In this document: piece by piece, positions 35,146 to 63,377 of the stretch
How the letters are laid out: each line of letters begins with the position of its first letter
Position numbering within the stretch: position 1 is the first letter of the stretch
Origin: Acidobacteriota bacterium
GTDB lineage: Bacteria > Acidobacteriota > Terriglobia > Bryobacterales > UBA6623
NCBI GenBank assembly: GCA_016125275.1
Contig: WGMB01000011.1
Coordinates: forward strand, 186,001 to 250,000
Direction of reading: 5' to 3'
Length of the DNA stretch: 64,000 nucleotides
Notes under the pieces: generated by a model
What the model was told of the DNA's origin: nothing
Databases searched by the model: none
What the model saw: only the letters and a program-made list of their open reading frames with translations
Made by a program: the position numbers and the translations under genes

Positions 35146-35170
35146 TCCAAAGAAGAGAACGCGGAGTTGA

Positions 35171-39926: not shown

Positions 39927-42131
39927 CTAGGCTCGAGCCGCGGCGGTCTTCTCCACTCGAACCGAGCATTGCTTGTAGTTCGGCTCCCGTGAAATCGGGT
40001 CGAACGCGCTCTGCGTCAACAGGTTCGAATTCCTCTCGAAATAGTGGAACGGCATGAACACCTGTCCAGGCCCCACGATCTCCGTGATCCGCAGCTCGAC
40101 GTCGTCCACGCGGCTGCGCGGCGAGACGATCGACACGCGGTCATGCTGCCGCAACCCGAGCCCGCGGGCGTCGCGCGGGTTCATCTCGAGCCAAGCCGTG
40201 GGCGAAAGCCGTTCCAGAATCTTCACCTCTTTGGTCTTGGTGCGGGTATGCCAATGCTCGACCGTCCGCCCGGTGTTGAGCACCATCGGGAAAGCGGTCG
40301 TCGGCTGCTCCGGGAAAGGCTCCCACTCGATGGAAAACAGCTTCGCTCGGCCGTCGTCGGTCTGGAATCGGCCGTCTTCGTAGAGCCGGCTGGTCGGCGG
40401 CGCGGCCCCGTCCAGGGCGGCGGCCTGCTCGACGGTCAGCGGCCACTGCACGGCGAAGTGCCTGTCGAGCATCTCGTAGCTGATGCCGGAGTAGTCGCAG
40501 AGCCGGCCGGCGGAGACCTTGCGCCATTCGTCAAAGGCGTCCCGCGGACCGGACCAGCCGGGGTAGAGCTTCTCTTTCAGACCCATCTTCTCGGCCACCG
40601 CCAGGAAGATGTCGAAGTCCGAACGCGCTTCGCCGGGCGGGCTGACGGCCCGGTTGACCTTGCTGACGCGGCGCTCGGAGTTCGTATACGTCCCCTCTTT
40701 TTCGCCCCAGATGGCCGCCGGCAAGACCAGGTCGGCGAGCTCCGTAGTCGGCGTGGGGTGGAAGCCGTCCTGCACGACCAGAAAGTCGAGGTTCGCCAGC
40801 CCTTGGGTCAGCACGTCGACGTTGGGGAAGGAGACGACCGGATTCGTGGCGATGATCCAAAGAGCCTTGATCTCGCCCTTCACGCACGCTTCGATGATGT
40901 CCGGGTAGGCATGACCGCGCTCGGCGGGCAGCTCGGATTCGTCGACCCGCCAGAGCCGGGCGAGCTCGCGGCGGTCGTCGGGATCCTCAAACTTGCGGTA
41001 GCCGGGCAGGCTGGACGTGCCGCCGGTCTCCCGCGTCCCCATGGCGTTGCACTGGCCGGTGATCGAGAACGGCGACGCCCCCGCCTTGCCGATGTTGCCG
41101 GTCAGCAGGGCCAGGTTGTTGATGGCGTTGACGGTTTCAGCGCCCTGCGTGGAGTGATTGACGCCCATGGTCCAGGCGATCATCGGGGCCTTGGCGCGCC
41201 CGTACAGCATCGCCGTGCGGTACAGCGTCTCCTCGCTGAGGCCGGTCACCTGGGCGACGCGATCGGGGGTGTACTTGGCGAGATGCTCTTCGAGCTGGTC
41301 GAACCCCGTGGTGTGCCGTTCGATGTAGTCGCGGTCGATCAGCCCGGAGCGGATGAGGATGTGCGCCATCCCGTTGAGCAGCGCGATGTCCGTGCGCGGC
41401 TTCAGCGGCAGATGCAGGTCGGCCATCCGTGCGGTCTTGGACACTCGCGGGTCGGCCACGATCAGCGTCTTGGCCGGGTTGCGCTCCAGCCGGTAGCAAA
41501 GGATCGGGTGGTTGTCGGCGATGTTCGCGCCGACGAGGAACACGACGTCGGCTTGCTCGAGATCGTCATAGGCGCCGGGAGGGCCGTCGGAGCCGAACGA
41601 GCGTTTGTAGCCGGAGACCGCGCTGGCCATGCACAGCGTCGTGTTGCCGTCGTAGTTGTTCGTGCCGAAGCCGAGCTGGACGAGCTTGCCCAGCGTGTAG
41701 AACTCCTCGGTGACGAGTTGCCCGGTGGAGACCACGCCCAAGGCGCGCGGTCCATACTTCTGCTGAACCTTGCGAAACTCGTCCACCATGCGGTCCAGCG
41801 CGGCGTCCCAGCTCACCGGCTGCAGGCGTCCGCTGTGTTTGAGAAGCGGCCGGACGGCCCGGGATTCCGCCTCCAGGATGTGGTGCTCCGCCAAGCCCTT
41901 CGGGCAGAGCTTGCCGCTGTTCACCGGATGCCCCTCATTGCCACGCACGCTGACGGCGCGGTCGTCCTTCACGCCGATCTCGATGCCGCAGCCGACCGAA
42001 CAGTAGCCGCAGGTGGTCGGAACCCAGCGGTCGGGGATCTTCGCCGCCGAGGTATAGCCGAAGCGCGGGTCGTGGCCGTAGCTGTACTTGTCCTGGAGCG
42101 TGTCGATGCCGAGCAGGCGCTTGATGTTCAT
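39927..42131 (-). CDS. nasA: Molybdopterin assimilatory-type nitrate reductase catalytic subunit
   Basis: 734-residue Mo-bisMGD enzyme of the NarB/NasA group. The N-terminal [4Fe-4S] site is CGYCSVGCGIEIGV with the fourth Cys in GKLCPKG. GFGTNNYDGNTTLCMAS contains Cys at the expected molybdenum-ligand position, and MGVNHSTQGAETVNAI, NPVVSFPNVD and RTVEHWHTRTKT follow. It ends soon after the MGD-binding domain, so it lacks the NasC/FAD or [2Fe-2S] extensions of NADH-linked enzymes and needs an external donor. ATG 42131 overlaps the stop of the DmsBC-like gene (ATGA), strongly implying that this is the donor. Confidence 0.9.
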   Translation of the reverse strand: MNIKRLLGIDTLQDKYSYGHDPRFGYTSAAKIPDRWVPTTCGYCSVGCGIEIGVKDDRAVSVRGNEGHPVNSGKLCPKGLAEHHILEAESRAVRPLLKHSGRLQPVSWDAALDRMVDEFRKVQQKYGPRALGVVSTGQLVTEEFYTLGKLVQLGFGTNNYDGNTTLCMASAVSGYKRSFGSDGPPGAYDDLEQADVVFLVGANIADNHPILCYRLERNPAKTLIVADPRVSKTARMADLHLPLKPRTDIALLNGMAHILIRSGLIDRDYIERHTTGFDQLEEHLAKYTPDRVAQVTGLSEETLYRTAMLYGRAKAPMIAWTMGVNHSTQGAETVNAINNLALLTGNIGKAGASPFSITGQCNAMGTRETGGTSSLPGYRKFEDPDDRRELARLWRVDESELPAERGHAYPDIIEACVKGEIKALWIIATNPVVSFPNVDVLTQGLANLDFLVVQDGFHPTPTTELADLVLPAAIWGEKEGTYTNSERRVSKVNRAVSPPGEARSDFDIFLAVAEKMGLKEKLYPGWSGPRDAFDEWRKVSAGRLCDYSGISYEMLDRHFAVQWPLTVEQAAALDGAAPPTSRLYEDGRFQTDDGRAKLFSIEWEPFPEQPTTAFPMVLNTGRTVEHWHTRTKTKEVKILERLSPTAWLEMNPRDARGLGLRQHDRVSIVSPRSRVDDVELRITEIVGPGQVFMPFHYFERNSNLLTQSAFDPISREPNYKQCSVRVEKTAAARA

Positions 42132-43654
42132 GCCGCCTCCTGCCGCGAGAAGAAGCTCATCGCCATGTTCTTGGGCACCACGCTGACGAAGAACAGATAG
42201 CGGCCCAGGGTCTCGCCGGCGAGCGCCAGAACGAAGCCGGCCAGAGGCCACCCCGCCAGAGGCAGGGCCACGCCGCCGGCCACCGTCAGCGCGATCCGCG
42301 CCAGGAAGCCCCGTGAGAGCTCGTTGGAGAGCAGGCGGGCGGAGGCTTGCCGCTCGAACTCCTCCGAGCGGATCAGGCGGACGAACTTGAGGCTCTGGTT
42401 GAGCAACTGGCCGATCGCCGCAACGGCGGCGGCCGACAGTAGGCCCGGACTGTCGACGCCGAAGGCCGTCAGCAGCAGCGGCCCCAAGACGGCGCCCGTC
42501 AGGAAGAACTCCGCGATCGTGTGGCCCATGTTCCAAGCCGGGCGGCCAGGGACCAGGTAGATCTTGGAGCTGGCGTAGATTCCCGCCGCGCCCAGCAGCG
42601 CCGAGGCTGCGCCCAACAGCGCCGAGCCCGGCAGCGCCAGCCATAGCGACGCGGCGTAGGCGCCGGCCGCCCCGCCGAACGCGCTCAGGCTAAGAATTTC
42701 CCGGCTGAGCCAGGACGTCCGCCAGCCTCGAATCGCCAACGGCGCGAACGCCGGCCGCCCCAGGTGGAGCGGAGCCGCCGCCAGCGACGCCAACCCCAAG
42801 AGCAGCGCCACGGTGGCCGCCATGCGGACGGGCTGCTGCGTCAGCAAACTCAGCAGCCAGGCGGCCGTGACGCCGCCCACCGAGAGCTGCGTCAGCACGG
42901 TCACGCCGATCAGCGAGCCGTGCGGCTTTTCCGGCCGGACGCGGTGATAGTCGGCCTTCTGGGCGTCCAGAGGCAGGGCGGCCGGCAGCGTGACGCGGGT
43001 CGTCGAGATCGTGTCCGCCGCGCTGGGCAGGCCCGGAGCGTTGGCCGAACCGGCGTACTCCCTCTTCCAGGCCTCGATGTCGACGATCTCGATCTTGATC
43101 GCCTCCGACGGGCAAGCGTTCACGCAGGCCGGCGCGTCGCCGTCCTTCAACCTGCCGTGGCACATGTCGCACTTGCCCACCACGCCGCGCTCTTCGTTGA
43201 AGACCGGCACGGAATAGGGGCAGTTCCAGATGCAGTATTCGCAGCCGATACAGACCTCGGCATTGTGCAGCACGATGCCCGTTTCGGAATCCTTGGCGTA
43301 GGCCTGCGTCGGGCAACCCTTCATGCAGGCCGGGTCCACGCAGTGGTTGCAGCCCATCGAAAGGTGCAATCGCTGCGTGTTGGGGTAGACGCCCCCTTCC
43401 ACCTCGCCCACGCGCCGCCACGAGATCTCCGGCGGATTGTTGTTCTGCTCCGAGCAGGCGACCTCGCAGCATTTGCAGCCGATGCACTTCGACATGTCGA
43501 AGTGGAAGCGGTACTGCTGGCCGTCCTCCAGCGGGATGGCGGGAATGAGCGGCGAATCGCCCACCAGCCCGCGCGCTTGCCGCGACGGCCCGGGCGGAGG
43601 CGGCGTGCGGAAGGGGTTGGCAAGCGGCTCGATCTGGACGAGGGACGACGTCAT
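42128..43654 (-). CDS. DmsB-DmsC fusion: four-cluster ferredoxin joined to a quinol-oxidising membrane anchor
   Basis: 508 residues. Residues about 50-200 are a DmsB/NrfC-type ferredoxin with four cysteine groups (CIGCKCCEVAC; CNHCVDPACMKGCP; CIGCEYCIWNCP; CDMCHGRL...CVNACP), enough for four [4Fe-4S] clusters. Residues about 240-500 are a DmsC-like anchor with about eight helices. DmsB and DmsC are usually separate; here they are one chain. It sits between nirD (1-bp gap) and nasA (ATGA overlap), so it probably carries electrons from quinol to the nitrate reductase. No Tat signal is seen on it or on NasA, so catalysis is expected on the cytoplasmic side. Confidence 0.9.
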   Translation of the reverse strand: MTSSLVQIEPLANPFRTPPPPGPSRQARGLVGDSPLIPAIPLEDGQQYRFHFDMSKCIGCKCCEVACSEQNNNPPEISWRRVGEVEGGVYPNTQRLHLSMGCNHCVDPACMKGCPTQAYAKDSETGIVLHNAEVCIGCEYCIWNCPYSVPVFNEERGVVGKCDMCHGRLKDGDAPACVNACPSEAIKIEIVDIEAWKREYAGSANAPGLPSAADTISTTRVTLPAALPLDAQKADYHRVRPEKPHGSLIGVTVLTQLSVGGVTAAWLLSLLTQQPVRMAATVALLLGLASLAAAPLHLGRPAFAPLAIRGWRTSWLSREILSLSAFGGAAGAYAASLWLALPGSALLGAASALLGAAGIYASSKIYLVPGRPAWNMGHTIAEFFLTGAVLGPLLLTAFGVDSPGLLSAAAVAAIGQLLNQSLKFVRLIRSEEFERQASARLLSNELSRGFLARIALTVAGGVALPLAGWPLAGFVLALAGETLGRYLFFVSVVPKNMAMSFFSRQEAA

Positions 43655-43655
43655 G

Positions 43656-43997
43656 TCAGGCCGCAGCCTCCCGCAGCACGTCCTCGGGGATGGCCACCAT
43701 CACCACGCCCTGCTCGACGCGGCAGGGGAAGCTCTTGACGCAGGTCTCCGCGTGCTCCTTGGGCTGCTTCACGAAGCCCGAGTCCAGCGAGATCCGCCAG
43801 TTGTGCAGCGGGCAGATGATGTCGTCGCCGGCGACGATGCCGTCAGCCAGCGGCCCCTGCTTGTGCGGGCAGCGGCTTTCGACCGCTCGAAACGCGCCGC
43901 CGAGGTTGAAGATCGCCAGCTCCAGCGATCCGAAGCGGACCACGCGGCCCTGGCGGACGGGAATGTTCTCGACTTGCGTCACGCGAAGCCACTTCAT
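43656..43997 (-). CDS. nirD: Nitrite reductase small subunit, Rieske type
   Basis: 113-residue Rieske-fold partner of NirB. Cluster ligands are present as C-P-H (residues about 43-45) and C-P-L-H (about 62-65) separated by 16 residues, so a real [2Fe-2S] cluster is likely, unlike E. coli NirD, which has lost the ligands. ATG 43997 overlaps the nirB stop (ATGA), giving tight stoichiometric coupling. The next gene begins 1 bp after its stop. Confidence 0.92.
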   Translation of the reverse strand: MKWLRVTQVENIPVRQGRVVRFGSLELAIFNLGGAFRAVESRCPHKQGPLADGIVAGDDIICPLHNWRISLDSGFVKQPKEHAETCVKSFPCRVEQGVVMVAIPEDVLREAAA

Positions 43998-46426
43998 GCG
44001 GTCGCCTCCTGCGGCATCGGTTGCTCGAGCGGTTGGATCTGGACGAACTGAGTCGGATCGGACGGCCGGTCGCGTTCGAGCCAGGCGTCGTAGGATCGCT
44101 CTTTCGATTTGCGCAGGCGTTCCAGCAGCGCCTGCTGCTTGCCTTCGGGCGCGTAGACGGTCTCCTTGCGGACCTTCTCCATGCCCAGCCGCTCCACGAA
44201 GTCGTAGCTGCGTTCCAGGTAGTTGGCGTTCTCCCGGTAGTACTGGAAGAACAGCTCGGCGGCTTCGAGAGCCTGCGGCGTCGTCTCGACGGTGATCAGC
44301 AGATCGGCCTTGCGCACGCCCTTGCCGGCCGCGCCCCCCACCACCACTTGCCAGGAGCCTTCCTGGCCGATCAAGCCGACATCCTTCACCGTGGCCTCGG
44401 CGCAGTTGCGCGGACAGCCGACGACGGCCATCTTGAACTTGTGCGGCGTGTAGAGGTTCTCCAGGCGCCGCTCCAGCTCGATGCCGGTGTCGATCGAATT
44501 CTGCGTACCGAAGCGGCAGAAATCCGTCCCCACACAGGTCTTCACCATGCGGACGCCCTTGGTGTAGGCCTGTCCCGAAGGCATGCCCAGCTCGGCCCAG
44601 ATCTTCGGCAGATCTTCCTTCTTCACGCCCAGCAGATCCAGCCGCTGGCTGCCGGTGACCTTGACCATGCGGACTTGGTACTTTTCCGCCACATCGGCGA
44701 TCTTGCGGAGCTCGGCCGGCGAAGTGACTCCGCCGCGCATGCGGGGGACCACCGAGAAGGTTCCGTCGTTCTGGATGTTGGCGTGGACGCGATCGTTGAT
44801 GAACCGCGCCGAGCGGTCTTCCGCATGGTCGCCGCACCAGATCACGTCGACCAGGTAGCTCAGCGCCGGCTTGCAGGTTTGGCAGCCGAAGCCGTTGCCG
44901 TAGACGTCGAGCACTTCCTGCACGGACTTGAGGCGCTGGGTGCGGATGATCTCGCGAAGCTGTTCCTGGCTGAAGGGCACGCAGCCGCAAAGGACCTTCT
45001 TCGATTCCTCCTCGAACTCCGGCGCCACGGCCTTGAGCAGGCTCTCGCACAGCCCTGTGCAACTGCCGCAGCCGGTGGCGGCGCGGGTGCACTCCTTGAG
45101 CTGGGCCAGCGTATTGACGCCTTTGGCGTGGATGGCCTCGATGATGTCGCCCTTGGAGACGCCGTTGCAACCGCAAACGGTCTCGGCGTTGGGCATCTGG
45201 GCCACGTCCAGCCCGCCGTCGCCGAGCGGTTCGGGAAACAGCAGGCTGCGGCGTTGGGCGCTGAGGTCTTCGCCGGTCTTGAGCCAGTCGGCGTAGCGGC
45301 GGCTATCGGCCGCATCGCCCACCAGCACCACGCCCTGCAAGCGGTTGTCCCGCAGCACGAGCTTCTTGTAGATCCCCAGCGCGGGGTCCTCGTAGCGCAC
45401 GCATTCCACGCCTTCCTGGTCGTCGCGGACGTCTCCGGCGGAGAACACGTCGACGCCCATGATCTTGAGCTTGGCCGCCGGAACCGAGGCTTCGAAGGCG
45501 GCCGTTTCGGCGCCGGCCAGGGTCGCCGCCAGCACCTTGCCCTGCTCGATCAGCGGCGCGACCAGGCCGAACAACTGGCCGCGGTGCTCCACGCACTCGC
45601 CCACGGCAAAGATGTCCGGATGGGAGGTGCGCAGAAAGTCGTCGACCACGATGCCGCGCCGAACCTCCAGGCCGGCCGTCTTGCCGATCGCCGCGTTGGG
45701 CCGAATGCCGGCGGCCACCACCACCAAGTCGGCGTCGAGCACCCGGCCGTCGCGCAGCTCCACGCCCTCCACGCGGCCGTTACCGCGCAGCCGCGCCGTG
45801 TTGGCGCCGCACAGGACTCGGACGCCCAGGTTTTCCATCTTGTGCGCCAGATAGCGGCCGCCGGCGGCGTCCAACTGCCGCTCCATCAGCCAGTCGGCCA
45901 AGTGCACCACGCTGACGTCGCAGCCCTGGACCTGCAGACCCCTGGCGGCTTCGAGCCCCAGCAGCCCGCCGCCGATGACGACGGCCTTGGCGCCGGGCCG
46001 CGAGCGCTCCAGCAAGCCCCGGGTGTCGTCGAGATTGCGGAAGGTGAAGACGCCGTCCTTGTCCACGCCGTCGATGGGCGGCACGAACGGAGAAGACCCC
46101 GTGGCGATGATCAGCTTGTCGAACTCCGTGACGCTGCCGTCATCGCCGGTCAACGCCTTCGCCTGCGAGTCGATCCCGACGACGCGCACGCCGGCGCGCA
46201 GCTCAATGCCGTTGGAACGGTACCAGTCCCAGTCGTTGATCGTGATCTCATCGACGTTGCGCTCGCCGGCCAGCACAGACGACAGCAGAATCCGGTTGTA
46301 GTTGACGTGCGTCTCGTCGCCGAAGATCGTGATCTGGAATTTCCGCTGATGCCGCAGAACCTGCTCCACGCAGGCCACGCCCGCCATGCCGTTGCCGATG
46401 ACCGCTAACCGCTCCGGTTTCGCCAT
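43994..46426 (-). CDS. nirB: NADH-dependent nitrite reductase large subunit
   Basis: 810 residues. An FAD domain (LAVIGNGMAGVACVEQVL) and NAD(P) domain (VVIGGGLLGLEAARGLQ) are followed by BFD-like [2Fe-2S] sites (VCGCNGVSKGDI; CGSCTGLCESLL; CGCVPFSQEQLREII; GFGCQTCKPALSY). The sulfite/nitrite reductase domain ends with siroheme/[4Fe-4S] ligands in TCVGTDFCRFGTQNS and VVGCPRNCAEATVKDVG. It reduces nitrite to ammonium in the cytoplasm. The start ATG 46426 has GAGGAGAGG just upstream; the frame extends further but without family similarity. First gene of the nirB-nirD-dmsBC-nasA transcript. Confidence 0.95.
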   Translation of the reverse strand: MAKPERLAVIGNGMAGVACVEQVLRHQRKFQITIFGDETHVNYNRILLSSVLAGERNVDEITINDWDWYRSNGIELRAGVRVVGIDSQAKALTGDDGSVTEFDKLIIATGSSPFVPPIDGVDKDGVFTFRNLDDTRGLLERSRPGAKAVVIGGGLLGLEAARGLQVQGCDVSVVHLADWLMERQLDAAGGRYLAHKMENLGVRVLCGANTARLRGNGRVEGVELRDGRVLDADLVVVAAGIRPNAAIGKTAGLEVRRGIVVDDFLRTSHPDIFAVGECVEHRGQLFGLVAPLIEQGKVLAATLAGAETAAFEASVPAAKLKIMGVDVFSAGDVRDDQEGVECVRYEDPALGIYKKLVLRDNRLQGVVLVGDAADSRRYADWLKTGEDLSAQRRSLLFPEPLGDGGLDVAQMPNAETVCGCNGVSKGDIIEAIHAKGVNTLAQLKECTRAATGCGSCTGLCESLLKAVAPEFEEESKKVLCGCVPFSQEQLREIIRTQRLKSVQEVLDVYGNGFGCQTCKPALSYLVDVIWCGDHAEDRSARFINDRVHANIQNDGTFSVVPRMRGGVTSPAELRKIADVAEKYQVRMVKVTGSQRLDLLGVKKEDLPKIWAELGMPSGQAYTKGVRMVKTCVGTDFCRFGTQNSIDTGIELERRLENLYTPHKFKMAVVGCPRNCAEATVKDVGLIGQEGSWQVVVGGAAGKGVRKADLLITVETTPQALEAAELFFQYYRENANYLERSYDFVERLGMEKVRKETVYAPEGKQQALLERLRKSKERSYDAWLERDRPSDPTQFVQIQPLEQPMPQEATA

Positions 46427-46440
46427 GCCTCTCCTCGTTT

Positions 46441-46810
46441 GGGGACCACAAAAGGTCCTCTTCCGCCGCTCGCTGGGCGACAGGGATCCTGGAGAGCGGC
46501 TACGGGGCCGCCCGGTCCCACGGCGCGACAAAACGCGGGCGGGCTGGGCCGTCTCGAACAAACCTGAGACGAACAGCTCCGGCCTGCGGCTTTGCGCACG
46601 CGGAACAGCAAATTTCGATGTTTGGATCTCGGGAGGCTACGGGGCCCGAAAATCACCGCAAGCCAAAGACTTGCTGCAAATTTCGCCCGGCTCCCGTTCG
46701 GCTAGGCAGGGCAGACAGTGTGGAACACCGCTGCTTACGTTTAGAGACTACCGGAGGCTCGCGACCGATGCAAGGGGCCAAGTCCGGAAAATCGGTCGAA
46801 TTGAAGAAAT
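46441..46810 (-). promoter_or_regulatory. nirB leader/promoter region between hemD and nirB
   Basis: 385-bp gap with no convincing gene. It holds a direct repeat GCAAATTTCG (46608-46617 and 46676-46685), a small hairpin GGACC/GGTCC 10-30 nt before the nirB ribosome binding site, and a GCAAG-N7-CTTGC dyad near 46658-46674. These may be sites for a nitrate-responsive regulator or antiterminator, but none matches a motif I can name. Confidence 0.35.
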
Positions 46811-47668
46811 CTATGCGGCGCCGCGGCGTTTTCCGCTCACCAAAGCCTGGGACTGTTCGGCCAGTTGCCGAATGCAAATGGCGAGCTTGGGATGTTTGGG
46901 CACGAAGTCCGGTTGGAGGTCCTCCCTCGCCAGGGCGTCGTTCATCACCGGCCCGATCGAGGCGATCACGAGATCACGGCGCAGGCGCTCGAGTACTTGG
47001 TCCTTGATCTCCAACCGCTCCGCCGTTTCCAGCAGATGCACGAGCTGAACCGAGGAGAGGAAAAGGACAATGTCGCAGTCGCCGGCGGCGATGCGTCGAG
47101 CCGCCTCCTCCAGCGGGCCCACATCTTCGGGCAGCGTCCAGCGGTACACAGGCACTTCGTTGACCAAGAAACCGCGTTCCTCGAGCAACGTGACGAGCTG
47201 CGGGTTGGACACGCCGTACGCCTGCACCGCCACGGTGTGCGCCGGGAGGCTGCGCATGGCGTCGGCCACCTCGCGCCAGGTGTTCGGCTCCGGAACGCTG
47301 ATCCGGGCCTTCCGTCCGTAGGCGCGCAGCACGGCCGCCGGCTTGGGGCCGCGCGAGACGACGCAGACGCGGTCCAGAGCGCTCAACAACGGCTCCTTCA
47401 GCTTCATCGTCTCCGCGACGTCGATCAGGCACTGAGCGCCGACGCCGGTCGTCAGCACCAGCGCGTCGTAGTGGTCGCCGATCAGGTCCTGGGTCAGTTG
47501 GCGGCACTCCAGGTTCTCCTCCAGCGGAACCTCGCGGACGGACGACGCATTGAAGGATTCGCCGCCTTCCTGCCGCACCAACTTCTCCACCAAGTCCGCC
47601 CGCCGGCTTTCCAGGGTCACCACTCGCAGCCCGCCAAAGGGCGAATCTGCCGCTGCGCTCGTCCTCAT
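46811..47668 (-). CDS. hemD: Uroporphyrinogen-III synthase
   Basis: 285 residues of the HemD fold, two alternating alpha/beta domains: LRVVTLESRRADLVEKLV, DALVLTTGVGAQCLIDVA, TVAVQAYGVSNPQLVTLLE (the Y-G-x-x-N substrate-site pattern), CDIVLFLSSVQLVHLLETA and VIASIGPVMNDALAREDL. It cyclises hydroxymethylbilane to uroporphyrinogen III, the precursor of siroheme. At a nitrite-reductase locus it probably boosts siroheme supply for NirB. No C-terminal regulator domain is fused. ATG 47668, with GGAGC 8 nt upstream. Confidence 0.88.
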   Translation of the reverse strand: MRTSAAADSPFGGLRVVTLESRRADLVEKLVRQEGGESFNASSVREVPLEENLECRQLTQDLIGDHYDALVLTTGVGAQCLIDVAETMKLKEPLLSALDRVCVVSRGPKPAAVLRAYGRKARISVPEPNTWREVADAMRSLPAHTVAVQAYGVSNPQLVTLLEERGFLVNEVPVYRWTLPEDVGPLEEAARRIAAGDCDIVLFLSSVQLVHLLETAERLEIKDQVLERLRRDLVIASIGPVMNDALAREDLQPDFVPKHPKLAICIRQLAEQSQALVSGKRRGAA

Positions 47669-47983
47669 GGTCCTTGCTCCGGAGTCTTCACCGCCTGTGA
47701 TCTCTCAGCGACGCGGCCGATGGTAACAACATCCTCGGGGAGTCCGAGGCTTCCCAGACAGGGGCGATGGCTTTCCATGGTAGCTGCAACCGGGGTGTCG
47801 GTTGTCAGCAACGGCGTTCCTGGCAGGTGTGGGCCGACGAAGCTGCGGTGCGCGAGCGGCTCGCCGGGCCGGCGGCTGAACGGCTGAGCTTCGGCCTATC
47901 GCCGGCTCCCGAGTCAGGGCCGAGCCCTCTGCAACAACAGCCTCGATGAGGCTGAGCCGCCGTCTGTAGGCAACTGGAAGGAT

Positions 47984-48025
47984 TGGTGCGGAGAGGAGGA
48001 CTCGAACCCCCAAGAGATCGCTCTC
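47984..48025 (-). tRNA. 3'-terminal fragment of a class II tRNA (Leu-like), candidate att site
   Basis: On the minus strand this reads a short variable-arm hairpin (GAGA/TCTC), a T arm (GGGGG-TTCGAGT-CCTCC), acceptor strand TCTCCGC, discriminator A and CCA. The matching 5' acceptor GCGGAGA, D arm and anticodon arm are absent upstream, so it is not a functional tRNA. Such 3' fragments are left where an element integrates into a tRNA gene. Leu is suggested by the acceptor sequence and variable arm only. Confidence 0.65.
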
Positions 48026-48760
48026 ACTCGCGCCTCTAGGTACTTGACAACGTTCTTGGAGCGTCGTAGCGGGCCTTTAGCATTGCCCCAGACTGCCCCC
48101 CAGAGCGTGGCGGGACCGCGAAGTTTAGCTGGGATACAGGGCGGTGAGGGCGGAACTCGGTGTCGTAGATGTCTTTTTTTTCAGTAAGCTACTGAGGGAG
48201 GATTACCACAACCGCCGTCTTCGCCGCAGCGCCCGCACCGCATTGCCGACCTTTGCCCACCCGCAGACCGCCCAGGTGGCGAAGGCCGACTAGAGAGGAC
48301 CCGAGGTCCACATCAAGGAAGGAAATGTCTATTCTATAGCCGATCTCGCCAGGCAGTGCGCCTGGGCAGGGTGACGATCCGACTACTGATCAAAGACGAA
48401 CCCGGCGTGCTGAGAATTCGCCGCGGGCGGCGCCGGGCGCTGCCCGCGGTACAGCGTACCGGAATCGGCGGCTCGGCGAGTTCACGCGAAGCTGCTCGCC
48501 GCCAGCGACCAACCACGGTATTGCAGTGCCCTGCGGGCATCCCTCCATTCCGAATCCGCCGCGCGGCGCTGGCAGGTTCCTGAGCCTGTGAGTCAGGTTT
48601 CCCCGCACTTTTGACACGGCTAGCACGGCCCACGAGGAGGCCGGTGGCAGATCCGCCCAGCGGCGCAGGGAAGTGGTCGAGCAAAGGCAGAACGCCGACG
48701 CGCAGCTCGGAACGGCTCTGGCGGGGCGTCTGGCGAGACCCAAGCAGCCTCGCCAGTGCG
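48026..48760. other. Gene-poor interval
   Basis: Together with 47669-47983 this makes about 1.1 kb without a convincing gene between hemD and the cupin gene. Frames here have arginine-rich, non-conserved translations and no ribosome binding sites. Just beyond the tRNA fragment the sequence has C-runs and an isolated T8 tract (48175-48182) followed by CAGTA/TACTG. It looks like decayed intergenic or element-edge DNA. Confidence 0.5.
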
Positions 48761-49171
48761 TCAGGGCCGCTGCTTCCGTTGGTCTTCGACCGTCAAGATC
48801 GGCGCGCCCTTCTTCTTGATCAGAAACACGAGGAACCGAGCCGGCTCCGTCTCGCTCGCGTTCCGGCCGACAACGTGCAGATCGTCGGGGCCTTCGTAGA
48901 AAGTCTCGCCGACCGTCAGCCGGACTTCCTGACCGCCTTGGACCTGCATCATGACGGTGCCTTCGAGCACGTAGAGGAACCCATGTGCGTCGTGCCGATG
49001 GACCGGGTCCCGCGCGCCGGGTGCGTACTCCACTTCGATCATGGCGGCCTCCTTGCCCGGAAGCTCGGGCAGGTCTCTGGACAGAAGGGACGTGACCGAA
49101 GCGTCCTGCGCGGTGGCGGATGCCGTCATGAGGAACAACACGGCGAACTGTCTATTGAGTCTGGACATCAT
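48761..49171 (-). CDS. Exported small cupin-domain protein
   Basis: 136 residues: signal peptide MMSRLNRQFAVLFLMTASATAQ, then a single cupin barrel with PVHRHDAHGFLYVLEG (metal-ligand His residues and Glu of motif 1), VTLxVGETFYEGP-like LTVGETFYEGPDDLHVVGRN (motif 2) and LVFLIKKKGAP. Such proteins bind a metal and small ligand; exact role unknown. ATG 49171 is chosen because GGAGA lies 4 nt upstream and the signal peptide begins here. Last gene of the minus-strand block reaching back to 58476. Confidence 0.8.
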   Translation of the reverse strand: MMSRLNRQFAVLFLMTASATAQDASVTSLLSRDLPELPGKEAAMIEVEYAPGARDPVHRHDAHGFLYVLEGTVMMQVQGGQEVRLTVGETFYEGPDDLHVVGRNASETEPARFLVFLIKKKGAPILTVEDQRKQRP

Positions 49172-49308
49172 TGGTTCTCCTTTCCTCCGCGAGCCGGCGG
49201 GACCACCGGCTCGTCGCCCGTCTAGGTACGGGCCGCCGGCTTCGACGACCTGACCGAGCAGCGAGTCGATTTCATGGCCTCGCGCGGTGATGCGCCCCTC
49301 CGCGTCGA

Positions 49309-50055
49309 TCAAGCCAGCCGGATGCCGCCGTCCACGGGAAGATTGACCCCGGTGATGAAGCTGCTCGCATCGGATGCCAGAAAGAGGGCTGCGTCGGCCA
49401 GCTCGACGGCCCGACCGAGCCGGCCCAGCGGCGAGATCCGCACCATCTCGGCTTCAAGGGCCGAGGCCGATTCGGGCGAGAGCCCCAGCTTCGACAGGAT
49501 GGGTGTCTCGACCGGCCCGGGGCTGAGCACGTTGACTCGAATGCCACGGTCCTTGAGCTCAATCGCCCACACTCGCGCAAACGCCTCGATCGCAGCCTTG
49601 GCGCCGGCATAGACTGCGTGGCCCACAACCGTCTTTTGGCTGGCGATCGAGCTGGTGAGGATGATCGAGGCGCCGGGCCGCAGCACCGGGACGATCTTCT
49701 GCACGCCAAAGAAGACGCCGCGGGTGTTGATGGCGAACTGTTGATCGTACTCTTCCGCTGCGACCTGATCCGACGGAGTGATCCGGATGACGCCGGCGTT
49801 GGCGAAGTAGATGTCCGCGCCACCGAACTTCTCTCGGACGACATCGCGGACACGGTCGTGGGCGTCGACGTCGGCGACGTCGGCGACCAAGCCGTGCGCT
49901 CCCGGGATGGTCCGCACGGCAGCGTCGACCGCCTCCGCCCGTCTCCCCACCAGCAGCACCGCGGCCCCTTCCGCGGCGAACGCCTTGGCGGCGGCGAGGC
50001 CGATGCCGCTGCTGCCGCCTGTTACCACCGCAACTTTGTTGGATAGTCTTTCCAT
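49309..50055 (-). CDS. Short-chain dehydrogenase/reductase (classical SDR)
   Basis: 248-residue NAD(P)-dependent oxidoreductase. Cofactor motif TGGSSGIG (residues 12-19), NAG in YFANAGVI, catalytic Ser in ILTSSIAS, and Y-x3-K in VYAGAKAAIEAF, followed by PGPVETPIL and a C-terminal DASSFITGVNLPVDGG. The Arg in VGRRAE after the second strand favours NADP. Substrate unknown. GGAG lies 8 nt before ATG 50055; 106 bp separate it from the MBL gene upstream. Confidence 0.92.
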   Translation of the reverse strand: MERLSNKVAVVTGGSSGIGLAAAKAFAAEGAAVLLVGRRAEAVDAAVRTIPGAHGLVADVADVDAHDRVRDVVREKFGGADIYFANAGVIRITPSDQVAAEEYDQQFAINTRGVFFGVQKIVPVLRPGASIILTSSIASQKTVVGHAVYAGAKAAIEAFARVWAIELKDRGIRVNVLSPGPVETPILSKLGLSPESASALEAEMVRISPLGRLGRAVELADAALFLASDASSFITGVNLPVDGGIRLA

Positions 50056-50161
50056 CGTTCTTCTCCTCGAATGGATACCTTGTCCCTGCCGAAGCGCCTC
50101 TCGCGAGCCGGGGCCGCCCTCGCGACCCCGGCGCCTGGTTCGGCCCTCGCCCCACAAGGGG

Positions 50162-51085
50162 TCAGTAGTCCCAGAAGGCCGGCACGCAACGGAAGACGTC
50201 GCCCGCGACCGCTACGCGGGCGACGGACGGGAAGGGCAGGTGCGTGGCCACCAGCGGCTCTCCGGCCTCCGCCAGCTCCCGCAACAGACGGACGCGGACT
50301 CGGGCGGCCTGCTCGGGATCGTGTTCGAAGCCGTTCTGCCAGTCCGGATGGTCGAATCCGGTCACGAACACCGCGTCGCCGGCGAACGTCAGCCTGTCGC
50401 CCCCGGACGCCAGCCGGACCACGCTGTGCCCCGGCGTGTGACCGCCGGTGCGCTGCACGAGCACGCCCGGCGCCACTTCGTACTCCTTGTCGAACGGCCG
50501 CAACTGGCTCTCGTACTCGTTCAAGAACCGCTTGGCCGTCCGCTCCAGCGCGTCCGGGAATCCTGGCGGCATGTGGACGCGGGAGAAGTCCGGCCGCCCG
50601 GCCCAGAACTTGGCCTCGAAGGCCGCAACGTGGATCTCCAGGTCCGGCCGCAGCCGCTCTCTCACGCCGTCGACGAGCAGCCCGCCGACGTGATCCATGT
50701 GCATGTGGGTCAGCACCACGTCGGTGACCGAGCCGAGATCGATGCCGGCGGCCTCCAGGCGCTGTACCAGCTTCCCGGCCCGCGGCAGGTTCAAGCCCGG
50801 GTCCGCCCCGATCCCGGCGTCGATCAGGATGGTCCGGTCGCCGCTGCGCACCACCACCGCGTTCAGCGCCCAGTCGAAAGCGTCCGACGGCAGGAACATG
50901 TCGTCCATCCAAGCCTCTCGGACCGCCGGGTCGATGTTGGCGCCCAACATGGTCGTTGGCAGCGGCAGCACGCCGTCACTGACGACCAGCACGTCGATGT
51001 CGCCGACCTGCAGCGCGTAGCGCGACGGAACCAGCTCGTCGCGCCTGGCTTCCACTGCGGGGTCGAGCATGAGTGTGTCTTGCAT
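50162..51085 (-). CDS. Metallo-beta-lactamase-fold hydrolase
   Basis: 307 residues. The metal-binding motif is THMHMDHVGG (residues about 132-141), with further ligands in QRTGGHTPGH (His), LTFAGDAVF (Asp) and VATHLPFPSVARV (His), the layout of quorum-quenching lactonases and related hydrolases (AttM/AidC-like). The substrate could be a lactone or another ester; not assignable. GGAGA lies 8 nt before ATG 51085. The 414-bp upstream interval carries a perfect 12-bp inverted repeat. Confidence 0.88.
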   Translation of the reverse strand: MQDTLMLDPAVEARRDELVPSRYALQVGDIDVLVVSDGVLPLPTTMLGANIDPAVREAWMDDMFLPSDAFDWALNAVVVRSGDRTILIDAGIGADPGLNLPRAGKLVQRLEAAGIDLGSVTDVVLTHMHMDHVGGLLVDGVRERLRPDLEIHVAAFEAKFWAGRPDFSRVHMPPGFPDALERTAKRFLNEYESQLRPFDKEYEVAPGVLVQRTGGHTPGHSVVRLASGGDRLTFAGDAVFVTGFDHPDWQNGFEHDPEQAARVRVRLLRELAEAGEPLVATHLPFPSVARVAVAGDVFRCVPAFWDY

Positions 51086-51272
51086 CGTTGTTCTCCTTGT
51101 GAAAAGTAGCCCTCCGACCGTCCTGTGGCGTTCTGCGCCCAGCGTCGGTTCACGGCCATGAGTGCACCCGGGTGTCCAAAGGCGCTCCGGTCGCGATGTT
51201 TTGGCGAACACGCCTGGAAACTCAACACTTAGCCATCAGACGCGGGCATGGAGACGGACCCGGGATCGACAC

Positions 51273-51317
51273 GATCTCGTGAGCGAGGCCCGCACAGCTC
51301 CTCTTGCTCACGAGATC
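51273..51317. promoter_or_regulatory. Perfect 12-bp inverted repeat, candidate activator binding site
   Basis: GATCTCGTGAGC (51273-51284) and GCTCACGAGATC (51306-51317) are exact inverted copies separated by 21 nt. Centre-to-start distance to the MBL gene is about 210 bp, typical of an enhancer site for a sigma-54 activator, and the gene immediately upstream encodes one. It could alternatively be a 3' stem-loop of that gene. No -24/-12 promoter was found nearby. Confidence 0.45.
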
Positions 51318-51499
51318 ACGTGAGTGGCGCTCAGGGCCGAGGAGGCGGAGCGAAGACGCGCGGCGTCAGAGCCGTTCGGAACGACCCGCGCACGGACGGA
51401 CGGGCGAAGCTCTCGCTCGCACCGTCAGCCCAGATCTGGAAGAGTTGCAGGAACAAGGACCGCGGCCTTGCCGGCGCAGCGGTCCCCCGAGGAAGGGAG

Positions 51500-53269
51500 C
51501 TATCGAGGCGCGGCGGCCGAGCGGAATCGAGGAGTAGGGCCGGACGCGGTCCCCGTGCCCCTCGAAGGGCTCGCTGGAAGTCCGCCGCGTGCACGCGAAG
51601 TACGGCGAACACCGAGCCGCTGCATCAAGCTCCGCAGGGTGTTGGGGTGGAGATCGAGGATCGCGCCGGCGCCGTTGGGACCGCTCACCACCCCGCCGGT
51701 CTGCTCCAGCACCCGCAGGATGTGACGGCGCTGGACCTCATCAAGGGACTCCGAAGACTGCCCCTCAGCCGTGCGCGCCTCACCAGGGTATTCCGCCGGT
51801 CCTTCGATCGGCAGCAGATCCGGCCCTAGGTGCAGAATCGAGCCTTGGGAGAGAACCACCCCTCGTTCGATCACGTTCTGGAGCTCGCGGATGTTGCCGG
51901 GCCACGCATAGTCGATCAGCAGGTTCATGGTCTTCTGCGAGATCGACTCAATCGGCCTCCCCATCCTCTTCGCCGATTGCCGGAGAAACGCGAGAGCGAG
52001 CTCCGGAATGTCGGACCGGCGCTCATTCAGAGACGGCACGCGCAGGGGAACGACGTTCAAACGGTAGTACAGGTCCGACCGAAACGCGCCGGCTTGGACG
52101 GCGGTTTCCAGGTCACGGTTGGTGGCGGCGATGATCCGAACATTGACCTTGACCGTCCGATTGCTGCCGACCGGCTCGAACTCTTGCTCCTGAAGCACGC
52201 GCAGAAGCTTCACTTGCGTCTCGAGGGGCAGCTCTCCGACCTCGTCGAGGAAGAGCGTGCCATTGTTGGCGAGCTCAAAGCGTCCCACACGGCGCTCGGA
52301 GGCGCTCGTGAAGGCGCCTTTCACGTGGCCGAACAGCTCGCTCTCGACCAAGCCGGCCGGGATCGCACCGCAGTTGATCTTGACCAGAGGGCTGTCTTTT
52401 CGCGAGCTCCGGCTGTGAATGGCCCGCGCGATCAGCTCTTTTCCGCTGCCAGTCTCGCCGTTGATCAGGACGTTCGCATCCGTCGAGGCGGTTAGCTCGA
52501 CCCGGGTCAGCAGCTTGAGCAGTTCGGGGCTGTTGCCCAAGATCTCTTCGAAATTGTGCTCAGAGCGAATCTCGTCCTGCAGGTAGACGTTCTCGCTCTC
52601 GAGTCTCGCCTTCAAGTCGGCGATCTCGTCGAAGGCTTGTCGATTCTCCGCCGCAAGCAGTTGCTGCTTCTCGACCTCTCTTTGCAGCGACTGGTTGGCG
52701 GCCGCAAGCTCCTCGGTTCGCTCGGCGACCTCGCGGTCCAGCACGTCGGCCAGCCGTTCCTGTTCTCGGAGGAGCCACGCCGCCTTCAGGGCCACCGCCA
52801 CTTGGTTCGCTGCGACGCCCAAAAGCAGCCGCTCAGCTCGGCTCGGAAAGCCCGGCCGGCGCGACCCGGCCAGCAGCAAGCCAGCGTCGCCTTGGGGCCC
52901 CAGCGGAAGACCGAGGATCGCTATCTCCTCGCCGCCCACCTCACTGCAAACGATCCCGGGCCATTCCTCCGCCGCTCCGTCAAACCCGCCCTCGAAAAGC
53001 CGGTCGATCTCATCCACGGGAATGGACTTGCACGGGTCGGCGACGCGCAGGGCAGGAAGCGACGAGACTCGCGTCGCCTGCCGCAGATAGACGAAGTCCA
53101 AGTGCATTACGCCTGCCAGGGCGTCAAGCAGAGTACGAACAATCTCCGATGGTGCGGCGCCGCTCCAAAGCGTGGGAAGGGCTACGACGCCAACGAGGTC
53201 GTTGATAAAATCCTTGAGTTGCTTTACTTCGATGCTCTCTTGCGTTTCTGCGACTTGGATTGACGTCAT
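51500..53269 (-). CDS. GAF-domain sigma-54-dependent transcriptional activator (FhlA-like)
   Basis: 589 residues: a GAF domain (about 30-175), a coiled-coil linker (LADVLDREVAERTEELAAAN; LKARLESENVYLQDEI), an AAA+ domain (Walker A GETGSGKE, Walker B TLFLDEVGEL, arginine finger region FRSDLYYRLNVVPL) and a Fis-type HTH (GAGAILDLHPNTLRSLMQRLG). The sigma-54-contacting loop reads GAFTSA where GAFTGA is usual, a variant seen in natural FhlA-like proteins. A basic/proline tail of about 30 residues follows the HTH. GGAGAG precedes ATG 53269. Target genes probably include its downstream neighbours. Confidence 0.93.
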   Translation of the reverse strand: MTSIQVAETQESIEVKQLKDFINDLVGVVALPTLWSGAAPSEIVRTLLDALAGVMHLDFVYLRQATRVSSLPALRVADPCKSIPVDEIDRLFEGGFDGAAEEWPGIVCSEVGGEEIAILGLPLGPQGDAGLLLAGSRRPGFPSRAERLLLGVAANQVAVALKAAWLLREQERLADVLDREVAERTEELAAANQSLQREVEKQQLLAAENRQAFDEIADLKARLESENVYLQDEIRSEHNFEEILGNSPELLKLLTRVELTASTDANVLINGETGSGKELIARAIHSRSSRKDSPLVKINCGAIPAGLVESELFGHVKGAFTSASERRVGRFELANNGTLFLDEVGELPLETQVKLLRVLQEQEFEPVGSNRTVKVNVRIIAATNRDLETAVQAGAFRSDLYYRLNVVPLRVPSLNERRSDIPELALAFLRQSAKRMGRPIESISQKTMNLLIDYAWPGNIRELQNVIERGVVLSQGSILHLGPDLLPIEGPAEYPGEARTAEGQSSESLDEVQRRHILRVLEQTGGVVSGPNGAGAILDLHPNTLRSLMQRLGVRRTSRARGGLPASPSRGTGTASGPTPRFRSAAAPR

Positions 53270-53327
53270 AATAATCTCTCCGGGTCTCGATCCAATCCCG
53301 CGCCCTCATCCCAATCCCCGATCGAAG

Positions 53328-54002
53328 TTAGAAACGCATCGCCGAACCGTTCAGCGCGTGCGGCCTATCGCCGGCGGCGCGCCTGTCCGCCAACTGCTTG
53401 AGAAATTCTCCGGGCGGGACAAAGAACGGATTCTCCTGAAGCATCCCGCCCATGACAACCATCGGATGGGTGCGGAGAATATCAATGACTACTTCGCCGC
53501 TGAACTTGGCGATGTCGTACACGCAAACAACAGGGTCAGGATACTTGGGCAGGACATAGTTCAAGCGCGCTTCATACTCGACGTGATCCTTGATGCCGTC
53601 CTGATCGTCCAACGCGAACTCCATCTCAACAATCAAGCGAGTCAGCCGAAAACCCAGCTCGGGGCCCCGCCCTAGTTCTCGTTCGATCAGCGAGATGATT
53701 GGGTACGGGTTGATCGAGGCATCGGCTTCGTCGATCGGCGGACGGCAACTATGGAGCTTGAGCTGTCCGGTCGCCTCGGCTCGCTCCGTATCGATGCCGG
53801 CCGCTCTCAGTCTCCTGAGATGATCCGTCCGACGCGAAGGATCGAGGACGTGTAGAGCCCGGTCGCCGTGGTCGAACCCCTCCTTGATGAACGGTAGCAG
53901 CGCGCCGTACTTGTCCTCCTCGCTGTGAAAGAAGGCGCAAACGTGGCGATGGACGCCGAAGGTGGAGCCGGCGAAGCGAATGTTGGCGGTGTCGGATGTC
54001 AT
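53328..54002 (-). CDS. MEDS (DcmR sensory) domain protein
   Basis: 224 residues consisting of a MEthanogen/methylotroph DcmR Sensory domain: HVCAFFHSEEDKYGALLPFI at the start, GDRALHVLDPSRRTDHLRRL, MEFALDDQDG and the C-terminal VVCVYDIAKFSGEVVIDILRTHP. These domains sense small hydrocarbon-derived or unknown ligands and often accompany histidine kinases or HTH proteins. Here it stands alone, 58 bp upstream of the sigma-54 activator, and may modulate it. The start ATG 54002 has no strong ribosome binding site. Confidence 0.85.
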   Translation of the reverse strand: MTSDTANIRFAGSTFGVHRHVCAFFHSEEDKYGALLPFIKEGFDHGDRALHVLDPSRRTDHLRRLRAAGIDTERAEATGQLKLHSCRPPIDEADASINPYPIISLIERELGRGPELGFRLTRLIVEMEFALDDQDGIKDHVEYEARLNYVLPKYPDPVVCVYDIAKFSGEVVIDILRTHPMVVMGGMLQENPFFVPPGEFLKQLADRRAAGDRPHALNGSAMRF

Positions 54003-54205
54003 ACGTCGAGGTCTCGCGTCTGAGATCAGAGTCGGGTTGTCTGCCGGCTCATCTACGCCGGAGGACCGAAGCTCAGGCGCTACGACCGCCGGCCTCCAGC
54101 TTCGGTATACGCTGTGACCGGGAAGGGGACGCGATTGTGACAGCTGTTTTCGACGAGATCCGGAAAAAATCGTCCACGCTCGTCGTCACCAGTGGAGAAA
54201 AGCGC

Positions 54206-55108
54206 TTAGGCGCCAGTCCCAGGCGTCGCTTGCGACGGCGGCGAAGCAATTCCGCCCAGCTTGCTCGGCCTCATGAACCACAGGATCTGGTCGATGCCCT
54301 GCTCCGACGCAGTGATGGTCGCGAGCGAGCCGACGCCGTTGTCGCGGAGAAGGCAGACGCAGGCTTGGCCATTGGCTTCGATCGTCGCGACCGTCACGCC
54401 TGACCAGAAGTGTGACGCGACCGCGGCGACGAACTTCGCCACGCGGTCGCGACCGGCGACCGGCTTCTGGGCGGCGCGCACAACGCCGCCGCCGTCGGAG
54501 TACGAGACGACGTCCGATGCCAGCAGGCCTTCGAGGGCGGCGAGATCGCCCTGCTGGGCGGCGGAGATGAAGGCGTCGAGCAGGCGCCGCTGCTCGGCCG
54601 CGTCGACTCGCTTGCGCCGCCCTTCCGAAATGTGCGCCCGAGCCCGAGTGACCAGTTGGCGCGCGTTGGCCTCGCTCGTTTGCACGATCTCCGCAATCTC
54701 GGCATACCCGTAGTCGAAGGCCTCCCGCAAGACATAGGCGGCGCGTTCGGTTGCCGAAAGCTTCTCGAGCAGCAGCAGCACGGCGAGCTCGAGCGCCTCG
54801 CCGCGCTCCGCTCCGATCCCCGGGTCAGCGGAGGTGTCCACGGGTTCGGGAAGCCAGGTGCCGACATACGCTTCGCGTCGAGAACGCGCCGACTGCACGA
54901 GGTTGATGGCCAAGCGCGTCGTCGTGGTGGCGAGGAACGCGGGCGCATCTCGAACGGCTGTCCGATTGGTCGATTGCCAACGCAGCCAGACGTCTTGGAC
55001 GACGTCCTCGGCTTCGACCGCACTCCCGAGCATGCGGTAGGCGATGCCGAACAAGCGCGGACGCACGGCGGAAAAGGCCGAAAGGCCGTCGTCGGACGCG
55101 CTCTGCAT
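54206..55108 (-). CDS. ECF41-family RNA polymerase sigma factor (SigJ-like) with SnoaL-like C-terminal domain
   Basis: About 300 residues. Sigma region 2 (RPRLFGIAYRMLGSAVEAEDVVQDVWLRW), the linker WLPEP motif typical of ECF41, and region 4 (LSATERAAYVLREAFDYGYAEIAEIV) are followed by a SnoaL-like domain from about residue 175 ending in MRPSKL, equivalent to the NPDKL motif. In this group the C-terminal extension controls activity instead of an anti-sigma factor. ATG 55108 is used; ATG 55117 is also in frame. TACAAT lies 7 nt before 55108. It is 22 bp downstream of the PRC-barrel gene. Confidence 0.9.
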   Translation of the reverse strand: MQSASDDGLSAFSAVRPRLFGIAYRMLGSAVEAEDVVQDVWLRWQSTNRTAVRDAPAFLATTTTRLAINLVQSARSRREAYVGTWLPEPVDTSADPGIGAERGEALELAVLLLLEKLSATERAAYVLREAFDYGYAEIAEIVQTSEANARQLVTRARAHISEGRRKRVDAAEQRRLLDAFISAAQQGDLAALEGLLASDVVSYSDGGGVVRAAQKPVAGRDRVAKFVAAVASHFWSGVTVATIEANGQACVCLLRDNGVGSLATITASEQGIDQILWFMRPSKLGGIASPPSQATPGTGA

Positions 55109-55138
55109 CCTTCGCATTGTACGGGAGCGGGGGACTCT

Positions 55139-55741
55139 TCATCGAAGAATCGGAGCAGCGCCGGACGGCATCCCGACCGGGCTGGCCGACCGGTCCGGGC
55201 CGGCTGCGATGCGCGGTCGACCGGCATTCCCATTCGGGAGCGCTTCCGCAATGTCGTGAGAGACCGGCGTGAAGCGCAGCGCCCGTCCCGAAAGACTCGC
55301 GGCAATCTCGATGCGCGACGCCTCTCCGCAGATGTCCCGCACCCAAGCCGATGGAACCAGCACCTGCCGCTGCGGAAACCACTCCTTCGTGTTCACAACC
55401 AAGTAGCAGACGGCCCAGCTTTCGGTGTCAACCAGAAGGTTCACGCAGATGCCACAGGGCCCAGTCGGCGTACTGGCGCTGCGCCCGATGATCTCCCTGA
55501 CGCCTCTCAACCCGCCGATCGGGTCTCCGCAAAGCGCGGACGTCGAGCTCAACTCGAGCGACCGAGCGCCGGCGTCGACCATCTGAAGGCGATCCATGGG
55601 CGCCGCCAACCGCGTGCTCCCGCGAACGATCGCCTGGCGGATGGTCCAGGTCGACTCGTCAACGAGAAAATCGTCCACCACGCCAATTCGCAGGCCCTCG
55701 GCGCGCACTTCTGACCCGAGCAAACGTTTCAGTCCTTGCAT
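55139..55741 (-). CDS. PRC-barrel domain protein
   Basis: 200 residues with two PRC-barrel-like segments: GLRIGVVDDFLVDESTWTIR (residues about 17-60, with VVDDFLVDE as core) and VCYLVVNTKEWFPQRQVLVPSAWV (about 100-140). Soil and acidobacterial two-PRC proteins of this kind are linked to stress or envelope functions, but no biochemical role is established. An excellent GGAGG lies 7 nt before ATG 55741. The start overlaps the end of the NmrA-like gene by 13 bp, so the two are coupled. The C-terminal 45 residues are low-complexity. Confidence 0.8.
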   Translation of the reverse strand: MQGLKRLLGSEVRAEGLRIGVVDDFLVDESTWTIRQAIVRGSTRLAAPMDRLQMVDAGARSLELSSTSALCGDPIGGLRGVREIIGRSASTPTGPCGICVNLLVDTESWAVCYLVVNTKEWFPQRQVLVPSAWVRDICGEASRIEIAASLSGRALRFTPVSHDIAEALPNGNAGRPRIAAGPDRSASPVGMPSGAAPILR

Positions 55742-56535: not shown

Positions 56536-56622
56536 GCGGTTCTCCTGTTCGAACGTTGCCGGGGATCGACGAGGGCGGCCGCCCCGGAGGGGGGCGGAGC
56601 GGCCTTTGGTGGGGCCGAGCCC

Positions 56623-57378: not shown

Positions 57379-57654
57379 TTGAATCTCCTGTTTCGGTGCA
57401 TTTTGTGAAACAACAAGGGGCGTAAGGGGAAAGAGTCGGAAAGGCTGACTCCTGCCTTGGTTTCTGTCTTCTGCAACCCGCAGTCCAAACCCCGGGCTTA
57501 TCTTGCGCTGGAACCGAACGCTCTTGGATAAGGCCTCTTCGCCGCGACCCGGCGTCGGCGGCTTTCTCGTCCGCCGACGCCATGTCGTGAGCTCCGGTCC
57601 GCCGTCTTCGACTCCTCGCGAGATTCCGTGATTACGGCGGAGCCGCACGAGGGG

Positions 57655-58476: not shown

Positions 58477-58664
58477 ATTCTTGACTCCTTTTCCGTGAAA
58501 CATCTGTCGGTAAGGCGGCGCCCGCCGGCGAGGCGGACTCCCCTCACCAAGCAAGCAAGGGGCCAACAATGAGGAGAGCAGGTCTCTTCGTTGATTCGAG
58601 TCCCGCATAGTGGGGGCCTGGCGGCTGGTTATGATTGAAAAGAAACCAAATCGTTATGCGGATT

Positions 58665-58682
58665 CTGAATCGATGGATTCAG
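58665..58682. promoter_or_regulatory. Palindrome upstream of the haloperoxidase-like gene
   Basis: Perfect 7-bp dyad CTGAATC-GATG-GATTCAG in the AT-richer stretch 190 bp before ATG 58476. Possible operator; no regulator assigned. Confidence 0.35.
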
Positions 58683-59100: not shown

Positions 59101-59150
59101 AAACCGATCATCGAGGCGGCCGCGACCCAACGCCACACCGCATGCCGTCC

Positions 59151-62249: not shown

Positions 62250-62267
62250 GGTCGGGTTCTCTGCCGG

Positions 62268-63362: not shown

Positions 63363-63377
63363 TTTGGTCCTCATGTC

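Follow-up and report, generated by a model that had tools for sequence, protein, structure and literature searches.

A half tRNA gene as the probable end of an old genomic island at tRNA-Leu(GAG) in an Acidobacteriota genome

The 3′ half of a leucine tRNA gene found in the chromosome of an Acidobacteriota bacterium is, with a probability of roughly 0.85, one end of an old genomic island of 26 kb, which was targeted to tRNA-Leu(GAG), has shed its integrase, and has become fixed in place. The window, i.e., the whole stretch of DNA analysed here, comprises 64,000 nucleotides and corresponds to C15:186001-250000, a part of a contig of 284 kb in a genome of 7.55 Mb and 20 contigs. Positions given without a contig name are those of the window. 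The features that define the boundary are the following:

47978 to 47983, minus strand: six bases 3′ of the CCA, identical in the intact copy (side-by-side comparison, alignment)
47984 to 48042, minus strand: displaced 3′ part of tRNA-Leu(GAG), nucleotides 29–87; distal, attR-like end of the probable island
48043 to 64000, no strand: part of the probable island inside the window; the 26.15-kb island would continue to C15:260133, 10,133 bp past the window
48359 to 48436, plus strand: piece 1 of a broken helix-turn-helix (excisionase-like) gene (E 1.2e-5, model positions 15–43)
48447 to 48494, plus strand: piece 2 of this gene, in a different reading frame (E 0.0055, model positions 47–62)

Read directly on the minus strand, the letters at 47984-48025 give the variable arm, T arm, acceptor strand, and CCA of a tRNA; ARAGORN found no complete tRNA in the window. 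When the intact tRNA-Leu(GAG) of the genome was compared with the whole assembly by BLAST, a match appeared at 47984-48042 on the minus strand (query nucleotides 29–87, 90% identity, E 3.6e-16); with the flank included, the pairwise match amounts to 61 of 68 bases at 47975-48042. The half tRNA proposed from the sequence alone is therefore real, but it is about 17 bases longer than the 47984-48025 first assigned to it and reaches into a decayed anticodon arm. An Rfam scan of 47.5–48.6 kb for a partial tRNA returned no tRNA; its one hit, a weak one elsewhere in that stretch, was put down to chance.

Integration into a tRNA gene, as usually understood, regenerates an intact gene at one end of the element and displaces a fragment to the other (PMC4383910, in the part consulted); under this model, a shared stretch that starts in the anticodon arm, like the one just described, is the mark of an element whose site lies in the anticodon region. 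The sequence-only reading had predicted an element at higher coordinates, which would run to a complete tRNA gene, identical in its 3′ end, beyond 64 kb. Such a gene exists. The last 30 bases of the tRNA, searched with up to three mismatches in the 7.55 Mb, occur at two places, both on the minus strand: the fragment (no mismatch) and C15:260134-260163 (one mismatch); the reversed control pattern occurred nowhere in the genome. The second place is the end of a complete tRNA-Leu(GAG), C15:260134-260220, which lies on the same contig in the same orientation as the fragment, 26,150 bp from it and 10.1 kb past the window edge. An intact tRNA thus stands at one end of the interval and a same-orientation 3′ fragment lies downstream of it; together with the foreign-looking codon usage between them (see below), the pair bears out both the boundary and the direction that had been proposed from half a tRNA seen by eye, and it fixes that boundary to the base. 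On the contig, one 3′ copy was found besides the intact gene, the rest being short chance matches, and the DNA that follows the tRNA in 21 related sequences yielded no further 3′ copy at E 0.01. A different kind of partial tRNA is present on contig C18, where an exact 69-base duplication (C18:157664-157732 and 159514-159582, L172), made up of 28 bases of upstream flank and the first 41 bases of tRNA-Leu(TAG), is found 1,850 bp before the intact tRNA-Leu(TAG). A 5′-fragment arrangement of this sort is the rarer one, with 159 of 3919 islands in the Islander table (PMC4383910, same part).

The fragment differs from the intact copy at six positions of nucleotides 29–87. In all six it is the fragment that has changed, since the intact copy agrees with the 12 tRNA-Leu(GAG) genes of the family (12/12); four of the changes fall within the 14 bases of nucleotides 29–42, in the anticodon arm. 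Because all six differences are derived in the fragment at positions that are invariant elsewhere, the fragment is the relic, and its decay indicates that the presumed integration was not recent. The variable stem has the same form in both copies, one that departs from the family consensus and recurs in one of the 12 genes, that of the relative G002. The relic would therefore derive from the tRNA of this lineage itself or from one very like it.

Among the marks of an island, a tyrosine integrase gene (PF00589) had no match on the 284-kb contig at E values up to 10, nor was one recognised by Pfam among the 20 open reading frames of the island. The integrase that had been expected next to the intact tRNA beyond 64 kb was thus not found on the contig, and the tRNA is adjoined by a gene for an HtrA-like protease. 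A model built from 15 integrase sequences of related loci gave nothing convincing on the contig; its best hit there, at 179 kb, had an E value of 0.73. A 42-amino-acid tblastn match to integrase inside the island (E 0.078) runs antisense to another gene and was taken as chance. The genome as a whole holds ten matches to the phage-integrase family, seven of them over the cut-off and none on C15. Since those seven lie on other contigs, one of them beside tRNA-Leu(CAA), an integrase supplied in trans might be imagined to excise an island that is still alive. This is highly improbable, given that the altered bases of the anticodon arm lie where the exchange would happen and that the 21 related sequences, 15 of them from relatives, contain no match to five integrases of the genome in the DNA behind the tRNA.

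A further trace of mobility is the broken helix-turn-helix gene, which lies about 320 bp inside the fragment end, in the 0.7 kb between the fragment and the first intact gene. It was detected with a model of 19 family members, the window being left out, run against the six-frame fragments of at least 15 amino acids of the whole contig; its two pieces are the two best of 5624 fragments and are collinear, and the next best (E 0.37) lies elsewhere. A possible extra piece at 48303-48371 was seen by eye only and is without a match to the model. The pieces are similar to a small helix-turn-helix protein of this genome, whose gene immediately precedes that of the integrase at tRNA-Leu(CAA). By its position and type, the relic may have encoded an excisionase, and it probably belonged to the element that integrated at tRNA-Leu(GAG).

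In 61 genomes, 20 relatives of the helix-turn-helix protein were matched in 16 genomes, this one included. An integrase match (E up to 1e-3) accompanies 17 of the 20 loci, one of these matches being weak. One locus (L196) lacked a usable alignment and was left out of both the model and the tRNA scan, in which a tRNA was seen at 11 of 19 loci (Ser 6, Phe 2, Leu 1, SeC 1, Ala 1) over spans of 11–20 kb at five loci, 20 kb at the locus of this genome, and 2–3 kb at the rest. At the five loci read wider, the edge of the integrase match lies 28–93 bp from an intact tRNA and the helix-turn-helix gene 0.03–1.6 kb beyond the integrase. The relic described here lies at the fragment end, i.e., on the opposite side, which leaves two possibilities: integration genes located next to the fragment in this element, or a composite interval. 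The tRNAs with a long variable arm (Ser, Leu, SeC) account for eight of the 11 loci with a tRNA nearby. It is rather doubtful, although conceivable, that the relic represents an element lineage of the Acidobacteriota which mainly uses such tRNAs, repeatedly loses its integrase, and leaves its cargo fixed there. The locus beside tRNA-Leu(CAA) (C6:194247-195652; L072, L176) consists of a helix-turn-helix gene, unbroken in this case, and a tyrosine integrase gene after it. No displaced 3′ copy of tRNA-Leu(CAA) was found in the genome with up to three mismatches in 31 bases, so that no claim is made that this family always leaves one.

The genes of the interval, as far as the window contains them, are listed here:

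48761 to 49312, minus strand: cupin protein (PF07883, E 2.3e-14)
49309 to 50157, minus strand: short-chain dehydrogenase (PF13561, E 1.4e-57)
50162 to 51211, minus strand: metallo-beta-lactamase-fold hydrolase (PF00753, E 2.7e-24)
51500 to 53269, minus strand: sigma-54-dependent activator (PF00158, E 4.3e-72)
53328 to 54002, minus strand: MEDS-domain sensor (PF14417, E 7.9e-34)
54206 to 55117, minus strand: sigma-70-type factor with regions 2 and 4 (PF08281, PF04542) and a SnoaL-like end (PF12680, below the cut-off)
between the sigma factor and the next protein, overlapping the latter: PRC-barrel open reading frame (Pfam)
55729 to 56535, minus strand: NAD(P)-binding protein (PF13460)
56623 to 57648, minus strand: second NAD(P)-binding protein (PF13460)
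57655 to 58608, minus strand: alpha/beta hydrolase (PF00561, E 2.6e-29)
58881 to 59348, plus strand: open reading frame with a transposase end, a remnant, IS3-type by sight (PF13683 rve_3, residues 18–59, E 4.3e-8)
59151 to 62249, minus strand: RND efflux pump (PF00873, E 3.3e-160)
62268 to 63374, minus strand: membrane-fusion protein of the RND pump (PF16576)
63378 to 64000, minus strand: outer-membrane channel of the RND pump, cut by the window edge (PF02321 on L003:379-2826)

Beyond the channel, toward the tRNA, follow a TPR protein, a protein kinase with TPRs, a DUF4136 protein, a DUF3313 protein, and a protein without Pfam match; the HtrA-like protease, which has PDZ domains by Pfam, is the last gene of the island. 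Apart from itself, this protease has its best relative elsewhere in the genome, on a different contig (43%); other genomes of the family reach 37%. The two genes for NAD(P)-binding proteins have a 177-nucleotide repeat in common (72%), and the region of the transposase remnant (58781-59070) has no second copy in the genome. Relaxase or transfer genes, the mark of an integrative and conjugative element, were absent from the 20 open reading frames by Pfam; phage structural or packaging genes, the mark of a prophage, were absent from the same 20 by Pfam and from ten of them by PHROGs. Among the 396 genomes of the phylum that were compared, the RND pump comes closest to one from another class (64% identity), and the trio of pump genes is present in three of the 17 other genomes of the family (58–60%). 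The three genes stand together in all ten neighbourhoods read in other genomes (7 + 3). As to the island as a travelling unit, these ten neighbourhoods hold only weak matches to its genes besides the trio: the kinase in two (33–35%), DUF3313 in one (30%), and the dehydrogenase in one (30%). Such a patchy distribution is consistent with acquisition of the trio and is not proof of it; the island may be one case of how a genome in this group gained an efflux system together with regulators.

The interval from 48 kb to the intact tRNA looks foreign by codon usage. For genes of at least 150 amino acids, called by our own script, the median fit to the codon usage of the contig is 0.199 for the 16 genes inside vs. 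0.444 for the 125 outside on the contig (Mann-Whitney p 2.7e-7), and the GC3 is 0.80 vs. 0.89 (p 6e-6, same genes); these p-values are optimistic because neighbouring genes are not independent. The step in codon fit is sharp at the intact tRNA (HtrA-like protease 0.108 inside, secG 0.498 beyond) and softer at the fragment (cupin 0.245 inside, uroporphyrinogen-III synthase 0.385 outside). By plain G+C the interval is not distinct within the window. Aberrant codon usage is also found left of the window, at C15:155-176 kb, where the genes are glycosyltransferase-like by sight. Left of the fragment, at 29216-36238, there is a second efflux-type gene set with a codon fit below the contig norm, including an RND pump (31777-35145) by sight.

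It is important to weigh here whether the partial tRNA might be a chance product of general recombination, a duplication or translocation that would mark no attachment site and would leave the 26 kb as ordinary chromosome. With no integrase found on the contig, and with a partial copy of tRNA-Leu(TAG) in the same genome that has no Pfam-recognised gene among three open reading frames tested between it and the intact gene, such an accident can be envisaged, but it is quite improbable: the orientation of the fragment, its start in the anticodon arm, and its end just past the CCA all fit integration, as do the codon-usage step at the tRNA and, next to the fragment, the disrupted member of a gene family that accompanies integrases.

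The family set used for comparison comprises 18 genomes, this one included, with no other member of its genus; likewise, in a scan of named genomes with triose-phosphate isomerase, the twelve best matches listed are Bryobacterales or other Acidobacteria at 62–67% protein identity, with no congener among them. As in the genome under study, tRNA-Leu(GAG) has secG directly upstream in 13 of the 15 relatives read, and ten of them have tpi there as well. Between genera, gene order past tpi-secG-tRNA is hardly conserved (matches of at least 38% identity over at least half of the query length). Behind the tRNA of the 15 relatives, read for 0.6–20 kb, no orthologs of island genes were found; there are weak matches to the kinase and TPR proteins in one (27–31%) and to the RND pump in another (23%). 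Conserved synteny of the genes at 48–64 kb in all relatives, which had been named as an outcome contrary to an island, is therefore not seen in those read. The left flank adjoining the fragment (39927-47668) carries genes for a molybdopterin oxidoreductase, nitrite reductase, and uroporphyrinogen-III synthase. Orthologs of the synthase, the nitrite reductase, and two neighbours were likewise absent behind the tRNA in the 15 relatives, counting matches of at least 35% identity. The synthase has a single weak match (34%) in the 17 other genomes of the family, for which reason this flank may be acquired too. A dUTPase gene lies 8–13 kb behind the tRNA, in the same orientation, in three of the five relatives read widely (G004, G006, and G012), and 72.6 kb behind it here, a hint that more than 26 kb has entered the region.

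Several observations speak against the island, namely the missing integrase, a relic layout unlike that of related loci, the milder codon step at the fragment, the host-like genes inside, the deviating stretch at C15:155-176 kb, the occurrence of the RND trio elsewhere, and the lack of a second 3′ copy of tRNA-Leu(CAA) at the intact system. The interval could also be composite, the outcome of two or more successive integrations and deletions at the tRNA, in which case the fragment and the relic would be older and the 26 kb mixed. This possibility, which is compatible with the preferred explanation, is somewhat unlikely. It would explain why the relic lies at the end opposite the integrase side of related loci, why codon usage is mixed inside the island (three of its genes look host-like, 0.39–0.44), and why a transposase remnant is found there; moreover, judged by the dUTPase distance, about 46 kb of additional DNA would lie past the fragment. 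A nested series, on the other hand, usually leaves more fragments than the one further 3′ copy of the tRNA found in this genome with up to three mismatches.

According to the explanation preferred here, that of an old tRNA-targeted island, a mobile element with its own copy of the 3′ part of tRNA-Leu(GAG) would have entered this gene through site-specific recombination, the crossover falling in or near the anticodon arm. The copy brought by the element would have completed the host tRNA, giving the intact gene at C15:260134-260220, and the original 3′ part of the host would have been displaced by 26,150 bp to become the fragment. The integrase gene would have been lost later, and the helix-turn-helix gene that accompanied it would have decayed in place. 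Finally, the fragment would have drifted without selection while the cargo became a fixed part of the chromosome.

The two ends of this interval resemble those of the islands compiled by Islander, which are likewise marked by a regenerated tRNA and a displaced 3′ fragment in the same orientation; in the part of PMC4383910 consulted, the table gives a 3′ fragment in 3760 of 3919 islands and an anticodon-centred site in 2083. Islander also demands an integrase gene between the ends, unlike the situation found here, and its filter would reject this island because none was found between the tRNA and the fragment. An integrase-less island can thus be mapped from the tRNA repeat and codon usage, though a method that requires an integrase rejects it. 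Judged by the portion of PMC9897764 drawn on here, a close parallel is PYG1 of Pyrococcus yayanosii, an element of about 21.4 kb that lies between a partial and a complete tRNA with 44-bp direct repeats; PYG1 uses an archaeal tRNA-Gln, whereas the present case involves a bacterial tRNA-Leu(GAG) and a decayed repeat. Within the same phylum, the large genome of the acidobacterium Solibacter usitatus Ellin6076 has candidate islands that are likewise old and degenerate acquisitions, with tRNA genes and mobile-element genes among their contents (PMC3174227, as far as consulted); unlike the interval mapped here by a tRNA repeat pair, they were called by composition with IslandPath. The island belongs to an ordinary, known kind. 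Being decayed, it is best called a defective member of that kind, which probably once worked like other tRNA islands.
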